31,365 nucleotides of DNA from a virus. The notes below the pieces were generated by a model. It was given only the letters and a program-made list of their open reading frames with translations. It was not told where the DNA came from and searched no databases. The stretch lies in IMG/VR virus record IMGVR_UViG_3300009285_016359, positions 1 to 31,365 of that record, one strand, 5' to 3'. Of this stretch, positions 3,739 through 22,208 are shown piece after piece (the first letter of the stretch is position 1; every line of letters starts with the position of its first letter). The translations under genes and the position numbers were made by a program.

Positions 3739-3755
3739 GCTAGGGAATCCCTAGC
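3739..3755. repeat. 17-bp palindrome, copy 5
   Basis: The sequence GCTAGGGAATCCCTAGC is perfect and identical to copy 4. It lies upstream of the promoter at 3668-3696 and outside its transcript, which fits a DNA operator better than an RNA element for this copy. Confidence 0.85.
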
Positions 3756-10686: not shown

Positions 10687-10716
10687 TTGACATTCTCTCT
10701 GCCTATCCGGTATAGT
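10687..10716 (+). promoter_or_regulatory. plus-strand promoter for genes 10743-12835
   Basis: TTGACA (10687-10692), 18 bp spacer and TATAGT (10711-10716) give a start near 10723, just ahead of the GGAGG of gene 10743..11090. Its -10 box overlaps that of the opposing promoter. Confidence 0.85.
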
Positions 10717-10740
10717 ACCAAACAATCTGGAGGTTGTCAA
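10712..10740 (-). promoter_or_regulatory. minus-strand promoter for genes 10664-4806
   Basis: On the minus strand TTGACA (10735-10740), 17 bp and TACTAT (10712-10717) give a start near 10705. It is face to face with the plus promoter; five of six -10 positions are shared inside GGTATAGTACC. The two cannot be occupied together. Confidence 0.7.
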
Positions 10741-20066: not shown

Positions 20067-20591
20067 TTAAATAGGATGTCTAAGTTTCTGTTCCCACAAA
20101 TCACAATACTTATCTATTTTGTCTTGTACTGTACCTTCTATACCACTTTCCAATAAACCATATTTCTTTGCTATATGCCAAAGAAGTTTTTTGTACCGCT
20201 TAGCCTGTCGGTTTGCTTCAACAAACTTACGTGATAGTTGTTTTAGACTCTTACCGCGCTTTTGTCTTAGTTTCTTTTCTTGTGCCTTAGTTAATACAGG
20301 CATCGGTGGCTTTAGTTTTTGATGATGGACCGCAGTTGTATAGCGGTGAAACATTTCATGACAGTCGCAGCAGAGTGTTATTAAATCACTGTCATCATCG
20401 TTTCGGTGAATATCATATTTGCGATGGTGTACATCTATCGAGATGCCTTGTTCTGGCCCTCGATTACAGAGTCTACATCGATATAGGTCACGACTCGTAA
20501 TTCGAGCGCGTACTATTTTCCATTCAGGTGACTTTAGATATTCTTTATATGAAAGTTCCACAAGTTCGGCGGTACTATGAGAATTATTCAT
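20067..20591 (-). CDS. HNH endonuclease, probably mobile (174 aa)
   Basis: ATG at 20591 follows GATTGGGGGATAGTTGCC; a longer ORF to 20678 has no site. C39-x2-C42 (CRLC), IDVHHRKYDIH (H55, H56) and CCDCHEMFH (C74, C77, H78, H82) give the zinc-bound HNH active site. The N-terminal YKEYLKSPEWKIVRARITSR is typical of phage HNH nucleases. The C-terminal 90 residues are lysine-rich and helical and could bind DNA. The gene is much more AT-rich than its neighbours, which suggests recent acquisition, as for homing endonucleases. It lies at the upstream end of the replication operon. Confidence 0.88.
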   Translation of the reverse strand: MNNSHSTAELVELSYKEYLKSPEWKIVRARITSRDLYRCRLCNRGPEQGISIDVHHRKYDIHRNDDDSDLITLCCDCHEMFHRYTTAVHHQKLKPPMPVLTKAQEKKLRQKRGKSLKQLSRKFVEANRQAKRYKKLLWHIAKKYGLLESGIEGTVQDKIDKYCDLWEQKLRHPI

Positions 20592-20628
20592 GGCAACTAT
20601 CCCCCAATCGTTTCTAATTAGCTGTTTA

Positions 20629-20634
20629 ATTATA
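20629..20634 (-). promoter_or_regulatory. possible -10 element of the HNH gene
   Basis: The minus strand reads TATAAT here, 38 bp upstream of the HNH start codon, but no recognisable -35 lies 16-18 bp before it. It is weak support for a promoter. Confidence 0.35.
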
Positions 20635-20748
20635 CTCGTCGCATTTGGTGATTGGTAATATAAGAGACCCAACACCAACTCTTCCTGTCTTCGATCTTGA
20701 TTTGGAGTAGAAAGACATCCTGCAAAAACACTCGAAACAACTTATTTT

Positions 20749-20910
20749 CTACCCCAAGAAATAAACAAGATCGCGCAAGGCACACTGTACTGAGCTGTCG
20801 TCCCCTCTTACTTTATTTACTACTTTCATGCCGTAGCTGGCCTCCAGATATTGATCTGGCATCACCAAATGGGGGCTCTCTTGCCGTTGTACAGCTATCG
20901 TTTTAGTCAT
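20749..20910 (-). CDS. doubtful small ORF (53 aa)
   Basis: ATG at 20910 to the stop at 20749 gives MTKTIAVQRQESPHLVMPDQ and an acidic, soluble remainder, a composition compatible with a protein. There is no Shine-Dalgarno upstream and no promoter was found; a GTG-started extension to 21054 is proline- and tryptophan-rich and looks non-coding. The ORF is the only candidate gene in the 1-kb gap between the HNH gene and the RuvC-like gene. It may equally be chance. Confidence 0.25.
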   Translation of the reverse strand: MTKTIAVQRQESPHLVMPDQYLEASYGMKVVNKVRGDDSSVQCALRDLVYFLG

Positions 20911-21103
20911 GTGCAGCGATGTGGCGCTTGGCGGGCGTCGCGTTACCTGGGTGTCCCAGCTTGACCCACAGTGCCCATGACCGACTGGTATTCTGGCCTG
21001 TATGTTTCCCCACAAACCGCCCAGTCCGTTTTTGAAGCGTGAACAGCTAAACACGCGGGAGTTCTTTCATAAAGTTTCCGGCATTCATCCGAATGCTCGA
21101 TTG

Positions 21104-21217
21104 AAAAAAATAGATCGCGCCGCGCGGGGTACTTGGCAACACAGCCGGAGATACTCGGACTTGCGGTGGGACACCACTTGGCGTGTATTCACAGATGGGT
21201 TTCCCCGCGCGGCGCGA
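21104..21217 (-). ncRNA. structured RNA element A with 15-bp closing stem and U-run
   Basis: A perfect 15-bp inverted repeat (21115-21129 with 21203-21217, core CGCGCCGCGCGGGG) encloses 73 nt that contain smaller stems (CCG/CGG near 21144-21157 and GTGG/CCAC at 21167-21178). On the minus strand the closing stem is followed by TCTATTTTTTT, so it resembles a terminator with an elaborate apical domain. It lies 58 nt downstream of the second structured RNA on the same strand, and could be its final terminator. Confidence 0.5.
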
Positions 21218-21274
21218 AGAACGGAAAATAGATGGCATTTAGTTTAACATCCCGGTGTACATGTCCTATCGGCG

Positions 21275-21554
21275 ATGCAAAAACCTCGGAATCTCTGGCT
21301 GTGCGGTATGGTTGAGGTTGTGTGTAGGAGGTACGAACCCAAGCCGCCGCCGTCTAGCAGGTTTACGCGTCGAGTGGCCCGGAAGCGGGGAGAGAGGAAA
21401 GCAAAAACCCGCTTCCGAAATTCGAGCGCGCCTTGGATGTACGGTGTACAGTAAGCTCCCTGTGGGGGACAGGGTAGAAGGAGAAAACGCCACACCGCAC
21501 AGCCAGTGATGCCGAGGATATTCAAATTTTTCTCTGCTTGGCTTGTTGCCAAGC
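21275..21554 (-). ncRNA. candidate structured small RNA B (about 280 nt) with own promoter and U-run
   Basis: A promoter at 21561-21589 fires towards it, and a perfect 7-bp hairpin GCTTGGC/GCCAAGC (21536-21554) lies at the predicted 5' end. A long closing helix pairs 21494-21517 with 21284-21307 (22 bp, two 1x1 mismatches; core ACCGCACAGCCAG). On the minus strand TTTTT follows this helix at 21279-21283, giving terminator-like termination. Internal stems are CCCTGT/ACAGGG, TGTAC/GTACA, CGGAAGCGGG/CCCGCTTCCG (21380-21417) and an enclosing CGCG-TCGA pair. Three pyrimidine-rich unpaired stretches (21478-21487, 21390-21403, 21326-21331) are complementary to Shine-Dalgarno sequences. Confidence 0.6.
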
Positions 21555-21575
21555 GAGGTCAGTTTAACGTAAAAT
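21546..21575 (+). promoter_or_regulatory. late-operon promoter candidate
   Basis: TTGCCA (21546-21551), 18 bp and TAAAAT (21570-21575) would start transcription near 21582, 50 bp before the RuvC-like gene. It overlaps the opposing RNA promoter. Confidence 0.55.
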
Positions 21576-21589
21576 GAATCCGTTGTCAA
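21561..21589 (-). promoter_or_regulatory. promoter of structured RNA B
   Basis: On the minus strand TTGACA (21584-21589), 17 bp and TAAACT (21561-21566) predict a start near 21554, exactly at the base of the first hairpin. The -35 is perfect and the -10 matches 4 of 6. Confidence 0.6.
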
Positions 21590-21632
21590 GCGAAAAATTT
21601 GGCATAAGCAAAAAAACTGATGAGGATAGGCT

Positions 21633-22208
21633 ATGAGAAAGAAGAAACCAGCGCCGCGTCGTCCACGCTATGTGGTTGGGGTGGATGCGGATACGAAGGG
21701 TATTGCCCTATACACCATGCCCATTGGAATAGTTCCGCGGCATGCGTACGATCCACCCTGTTCGGAGGATACCCCCAACGCCCTGTATATCGAGCGGCCT
21801 AAAGATGGGGCGTCCCAGGAGCAGCACGCAGCTTACATCCAGCAGTTGCAGGCGGCTTTTATCCAAATAGCCGTGTTGGACGCGGAGGTCTGGGTCGAGG
21901 ATGTGTTCTGCCGGTCCCGCACGGGCTACCGATCTTTGTGCATGGTGCGCGGGGAGCTGCGGATGACGGCGCTTTCGCTGGGGTGTCGCCCGTTCCAATG
22001 GGTGCTGGCGTCTGCGTGGCAACCTCGGGTGTTTAAGCGGCTGCTTAACCAATCGAAACGCGCCACGGGGGGCCAAACCAAGGTATATGCCAAGAAAGCG
22101 GCGTTGCACATCGATCCTATGGGAATGGACGGCGCGAACGAACACGAGTGCGATGCGTGCTGTATCGCGTACTATGCGTGGATGAGGGTTATGGGATGTT
22201 TCGTATAG
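21633..22208 (+). CDS. RuvC-like Holliday junction resolvase (191 aa)
   Basis: The ATG follows ATGAGGATAGGCT. The RNase H-like fold of RuvC is indicated by VVGVDADTKG (D18), VWVEDVF (E89) and EHECDACCIAYYAW (H171, D174), acidic residues in the order and spacing of RuvC-family active sites. The middle (TGYRSLCMVRGELRMTALSL) resembles the conserved helix. The length is typical of phage RuvC-like proteins encoded beside terminase genes. It probably resolves branched DNA before packaging. It overlaps the small terminase gene by 13 bp. Confidence 0.82.
   Translation: MRKKKPAPRRPRYVVGVDADTKGIALYTMPIGIVPRHAYDPPCSEDTPNALYIERPKDGASQEQHAAYIQQLQAAFIQIAVLDAEVWVEDVFCRSRTGYRSLCMVRGELRMTALSLGCRPFQWVLASAWQPRVFKRLLNQSKRATGGQTKVYAKKAALHIDPMGMDGANEHECDACCIAYYAWMRVMGCFV

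Follow-up and report, generated by a model that had tools for sequence, protein, structure and literature searches.

A putative structured RNA with Shine-Dalgarno-complementary loops, predicted on the minus strand between the early and late gene blocks of a phage record

The virus record IMGVR_UViG_3300009285_016359 contains a divergent intergenic gap (20592-21632), which raises the question of whether an RNA gene resides between the two gene blocks and, if so, how such an RNA might act. The whole record of 31,365 bases, referred to here as the window, was analyzed. Most of its left two thirds is taken up by minus-strand, early genes (helicase, primase, RNA ligase, HNH, and two tRNAs), the plus-strand late block (terminase, portal, maturation protease, and capsid) occupies the right third, and the cumulative GC skew changes direction at the gap. 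Much larger phages, e.g., Streptomyces Stanwilliamsviridae, have structural proteins similar (24-29% identity) to those encoded here, and for this reason the record probably represents part of a larger genome. The product of the first late gene has no family match. An initial annotation had placed in this gap an RNA that would block many ribosome-binding sites at once and work as a new kind of early-late switch.

The promoter, the 5' hairpin at the start, the closing helix followed by U5, and the internal stems listed in that annotation, with the strand unnamed, are all present on the minus strand and delimit the inferred transcript RNA1 (Table 1). The closing helix, described as 22 bp long, does exist but its size was underestimated: 21517-21490 and 21311-21284 form 26 pairs (6+3+17) with two 1x1 mismatches. 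Its score of 19 exceeds that of every other long-range inverted repeat in the window (the top scores in 20 block-shuffled windows were 11-15), and the complete inverted-repeat arms span 33 nt, are 85% complementary, and are separated by 178 nt. The fold of 21554-21273 reached an MFE of -117.7 versus -82.0 +/- 5.2 for shuffled sequences (z -6.8), and none of the 200 shuffles equaled it. The inner 178 nt alone gave a z of only -2.5, hence the closing arms carry much of the fold signal. The 5' hairpin starts at 21554, exactly 7 nt past the -10 box, and its 21536-21554 dyad has no second copy in the window.

Among the loops, UUUUCUCCUU (21487-21478) had been reported correctly and was unpaired in the fold with a probability of ~0.99. 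The sequence CCUCCU was also correct, but only its CUCC part (21330-21327) stays unpaired in the model. The CCCCC loop at 21468-21464 and the pyrimidine loop C had been overlooked. The tested open frames of the gap gave codon scores of about zero or below, with no coding signal; RNA1 is non-coding, as a stand-alone sRNA gene would be. No copies of RNA1 were found elsewhere in the window.

Table 1. Coordinates and supporting observations for the features of the RNA1 locus.
Feature	Position	Strand	Observation
RNA1, inferred ~276-nt transcript	21279..21554	-	promoter in front; fold z -6.8; end resembling a terminator; coding signal absent
RNA1 promoter, sigma70-type, TTGACA-17-TAAACT	21561..21589	-	10/12 consensus match; rank 4/62,658
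Late promoter TTGCCA-18-TAAAAT, head-on overlap with the RNA1 promoter	21546..21575	+	rank 8/62,658
5' hairpin GCUUGGC-AACAA-GCCAAGC, starts at the predicted +1; could instead be an operator dyad (7-5-7)	21536..21554	-	fold
Closing helix, 5' arm	21490..21517	-	inverted repeat; top long-range one of the window
Loop A CGUUUUCUCCUU, unpaired, with complementarity to Shine-Dalgarno sequences of the AAGGAGAA type	21478..21489	-	unpaired probability ~0.99
Hairpin CCCUGU-CCCCC-ACAGGG, C5 loop	21458..21474	-	fold
Hairpin of 12 bp enclosing the pyrimidine loop C (18 nt), UUUUUGCUUUCCUCUCUC (21407-21390)	21378..21419	-	fold
CCUCCU, in the model unpaired only at CUCC	21326..21331	-	fold
Closing helix, 3' arm	21284..21311	-	inverted repeat and fold
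U5 tract abutting the closing helix; candidate intrinsic terminator	21279..21283	-	second best of 69 U5 runs
RNA2 candidate	21104..21238	-	z -4.8, 0/200 shuffles equal
Promoter of the HNH endonuclease gene	20658-20629	-	rank 12 in the PWM scan
HNH endonuclease gene, next downstream of RNA1	20067..20591	-	PHROG HNH families E 1e-12
Gene opening the late operon (terminase, portal, capsid), product of 191 aa	21633..22208	+	

Promoters were ranked via a PWM scan of 62,658 positions on both strands, using approximate, self-made sigma70 frequencies. RNA1 has a predicted promoter of its own, as expected for a stand-alone sRNA gene, recognized through its consensus match; many other top-ranked sites also fall in intergenic gaps. 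The late promoter overlaps that of RNA1 head-on, and the -35 box of the late promoter is overlapped by the perfect 7-5-7 dyad. A second head-on overlapping pair of strong promoters, arranged like the pair at 21546-21589, was noted at 10687-10740 (plus strand with the -10 at 10711, minus strand with the -10 at 10717). At the other end of RNA1, the 26-pair helix stands directly before U5 and was not reported by a standard terminator scan; with arms ~180 nt apart, it would be a terminator of unusual design.

The two best helix-before-U-run arrangements among the 69 U5 runs of the window belong to RNA2 and RNA1, in tandem and both on the minus strand. RNA2 lies just downstream of RNA1 and shares its design, being closed by a perfect 15-bp helix (21217-21203 / 21129-21115), the second strongest long-range inverted repeat of the window, which is followed by AUCU-A-U7. 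Its promoter is weak (rank 148), with a possible extended -10 TGTTAAACT at 21249-21241. The tandem arrangement suggests a small RNA locus and not an accident. Altogether, we consider it likely, from the modeled fold and the predicted signals, that RNA1 represents a new, independently transcribed, structured phage RNA gene.

The complementarity of the loops to ribosome-binding sites was analyzed for 44 start regions, each with one coding control window, out of 47 genes predicted by open frame and Shine-Dalgarno match. The sequence AAGGAGAA, to which UUUUCUCCUU is complementary as originally proposed, occurs exactly upstream of four minus-strand genes, and near variants precede several more. Pairing was scored with a simple accessibility-corrected duplex calculation in 12-nt windows, not with IntaRNA itself. 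RNA1 scored -6.22 on the start regions and -2.20 on the coding windows, a difference of -4.02, and the absolute numbers are inflated because the start sites were partly picked by their anti-Shine-Dalgarno match, which favors anti-Shine-Dalgarno-like loops over shuffles. The initial annotation had staked its proposal in part on hybridization exceeding that of shuffled loops, and the test went in its favor: neither the 150 dinucleotide shuffles (difference -1.65 +/- 0.52) nor the 150 random segments of the window (-0.85 +/- 0.92) included one matching RNA1. Changing loop A in silico reduced the difference to -2.88 and changing both loops A and C to -1.51, the level of shuffles. An earlier version of the calculation, in which the target windows were longer, agreed with this result, loop A being the most used site and loop C the second. 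RNA2 showed no ribosome-site preference (start minus coding score -1.42, like an average sequence).

The two loops differ when compared with their own shuffles. Loop A was equaled by 30 of 1000 and thus beat 97% of them, whereas loop C was no better than its shuffles, 767 of 1000 being as good; part of the pairing signal is therefore simple pyrimidine content, and the claim of complementarity rests on one motif plus pyrimidine content. In their fit to loop A relative to the 16S tail, this phage's own sites ranked 10th of 87 (86 other phage loci) and first of 27 at similar GC (26 GC-matched loci), which we take as a hint of tuning, no more; loop A also fits the sites of other phages, as any anti-Shine-Dalgarno sequence would. 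The predicted targets comprise early and late genes, including the first late gene. For loop A, the mean energy was -10.3 for minus genes versus -9.1 for plus genes, and the best single target was the late major capsid gene (-15.7 kcal/mol). With no selectivity for early genes, the idea of an early-gene-selective switch was rejected.

RNA1 resembles several described regulators in how it might work. In Staphylococcus aureus, RNAIII and other sRNAs with UCCC loops mask the Shine-Dalgarno sites of several mRNAs with C-rich loops (PMC2837412). RNAIII is, like RNA1, large and structured, with several unpaired C-rich loops, but it is a bacterial quorum-sensing effector with the UCCC signature and proven targets, whereas RNA1 belongs to a phage and has U/C-rich loops and predicted targets. 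The Xanthomonas sX13 RNA pairs with G-rich motifs near start codons through stems with apical CCCC/CCCCC loops (PMC3771888). RNA1 has one CCCCC hairpin loop; the bacterial sX13, unlike RNA1, lacks a long closing helix and is built of three simple stem-loops plus a 5' region without structure. RNA1 shares with both regulators unpaired pyrimidine-rich loops complementary to Shine-Dalgarno sequences above chance, and its base pairing with ribosome-binding sites is at present a computational prediction.

Phages and their satellites also provide leader-complementary RNAs. The inter-inverted-repeat (IIR) transcript of the Vibrio cholerae satellites PLE is non-coding, complementary to the leaders of PLE's own genes, and the most abundant PLE transcript in RNA-seq (PMC7567579). 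Both it and RNA1 lie between inverted repeats, RNA1 being a predicted transcript. The c4/CI antisense RNAs of P1, P7, N15, and P4 are complementary to ribosome-binding sites or leaders (PMC12197685, PMC7567579), in c4 probably through sequences in loops (PMC12197685); as an immunity RNA, c4 acts on a specific target, whereas RNA1, which has no Rfam match, would hit many sites. GOLLD and ROOL, structured phage non-coding RNAs whose role is unknown (PMC12286853), are far larger. Hence, the label of a new kind of regulator holds in part: the RNA is probably new, but its presumed way of action has precedents among these systems. If the model is right, RNA1 would work like the C-rich-loop regulators or the phage leader-antisense RNAs, which does not imply membership in those families.

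Searches for relatives did not extend any family to this locus. Rfam 15 at the gathering threshold (families including 6S, tmRNA, RNase P, C4, HEARO, GOLLD, and ROOL) returned only two tRNAs for the window, and a permissive search of 20680-21640 gave two matches, both attributable to chance. A HEARO/omega-RNA with IscB was rejected for lack of an Rfam match, and no reverse transcriptase indicative of a retron was present among the proteins scanned. No relatives of the locus were found by a DNA search of phages and plasmids, nor via the terminase, gene 21633, helicase, and capsid (viral contigs) or the portal (genome contigs); these single-protein searches required exact 8-residue matches and may miss moderately diverged relatives. 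Among capsid relatives, L095 is the nearest (42% identity); this 5.2-kb fragment ends short of the RNA1 locus. Another (L097, 36%) has only plus-strand genes upstream of the capsid gene and no divergent gap in the 10 kb covered. The closing-arm pattern had no viral match, and its only genome matches, L175 and L176, aligned poorly and were rejected as chance.

Other structured or repeated stretches were noted in the left part of the window. The gene-poor region 1512-2630 (~1.1 kb) folds better than chance (z -3.5 minus, -5.6 plus), and a minus-strand promoter among the top two in the window (TTGACA-17-TATACT at ~2642) leads into it from the right. The region may hold a further large non-coding RNA or a long leader, for which the ~800-nt ncRNA within an ORF-less 1-kb gap of phage ICP1 offers a parallel (PMC7567579). 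GGTAGT occurs four times on the minus strand over ~310 bases of this stretch (1837-1842, 1924-1929, 1935-1940, and 2142-2147). The palindrome GCTAGGGAATCCCTAGC, which looks like an operator repeat, has five near-identical copies (402-418, 1126-1142, 2288-2304, 2503-2519, and 3739-3755) versus 0.04 matches expected by chance, all of them in the left 4 kb. A 24-nt inverted repeat (83% complementary, 7-nt loop) at 1203-1257 belongs to a stretch where local folding is the strongest of the window.

As the best explanation of the locus as a whole, with a probability of roughly 0.38, we propose that RNA1 is an independent non-coding RNA, read leftward from a sigma70 promoter of its own inside the early/late divergent gap. 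The 26-pair helix would both close the RNA and end transcription at U5. Exposed pyrimidine loops, mainly UUUUCUCCUU and UUUUUGCUUUCCUCUCUC, would base-pair with Shine-Dalgarno regions in many mRNAs, lowering their translation, and the head-on overlap of the promoters would tend to let firing of one exclude the other.

The functional strand is very probably the minus one, favored because the promoter and the U-run lie there. Its unpaired bases (C 34%, U 31%, A 28%, and G 8%) count against it since structured RNAs usually have A/G-rich unpaired bases, as seen on the plus strand (A 38%, G 27%). A purine-loop RNA or a structured late-operon leader on the plus strand, i.e., a CsrB/RsmZ-type sponge or a 5' UTR element, would also account for several GGA motifs (AGGAGG, GAGGAAA, AAGGAGA, and GGGGGA) exposed largely at unpaired positions and for a fold far better than chance (z -5.4). 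We find this improbable, given the stronger z of the minus strand, the absence of a plus-strand U-run directly past the helix, and the lack of a strong plus promoter upstream in the gap (best rank 110 versus rank 4 on the minus strand). About equally improbable is a DNA element, such as an origin, a cos/pac-like packaging site, or an operator cluster in which the 21536-21554 dyad serves both overlapping promoters. Its location immediately upstream of the terminase genes, the skew turn, and the perfect dyad overlapping the late -35 box speak for such an element, but a change in gene direction accounts for the skew turn as well, the dyad stands alone, and the strand-specific features (a helix and then a U-run, twice in tandem, with a promoter before the first) suit RNA genes.

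The strongest competitor, which we still regard as rather unlikely, is a stand-alone RNA functioning by its shape as a protein scaffold, packaging, or decoy RNA, in a setting comparable to those of phi29 pRNA, the T4 stable RNAs, or GOLLD/ROOL. In its favor are a very strong fold and closing helix, the tandem RNA2 of like design without ribosome-site preference, the adjoining packaging genes, and the abundance of phage ncRNAs of unknown role (PMC7567579). The pyrimidine loops would then not be antisense sites, and their complementarity to ribosome sites, unmatched in both null sets, would be a coincidence; nor does Rfam offer a match. Least probable of all is a functionless, MITE-like relic of an inverted-repeat mobile element. 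The long, widely spaced arms are compatible with such an origin, which was suggested for phage inter-inverted-repeat RNAs (PMC7567579), yet the element occurs once in the window, has internal stems besides the arms, and is fittingly flanked by a strong promoter and a U-run.

Returning to the Shine-Dalgarno-pairing RNA, we consider its antisense mechanism plausible and partly tested, at odds somewhat short of even, and RNA1 may dampen the translation of many messages. A bolder version, in which several loops imitate the anti-Shine-Dalgarno tail of the ribosome to form a broad, low-specificity brake on many phage and perhaps host messages while the promoter excludes the late promoter, seems doubtful to us. 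If the proposed pairing is true, loop changes should alter the translation of the AAGGAGAA-led genes. Documentation of phage regulatory RNAs with many target messages is poor, and RNA1, if real, would add a new structured RNA gene from a phage lineage that lacks close sequenced kin, at the point where early and late transcription diverge.
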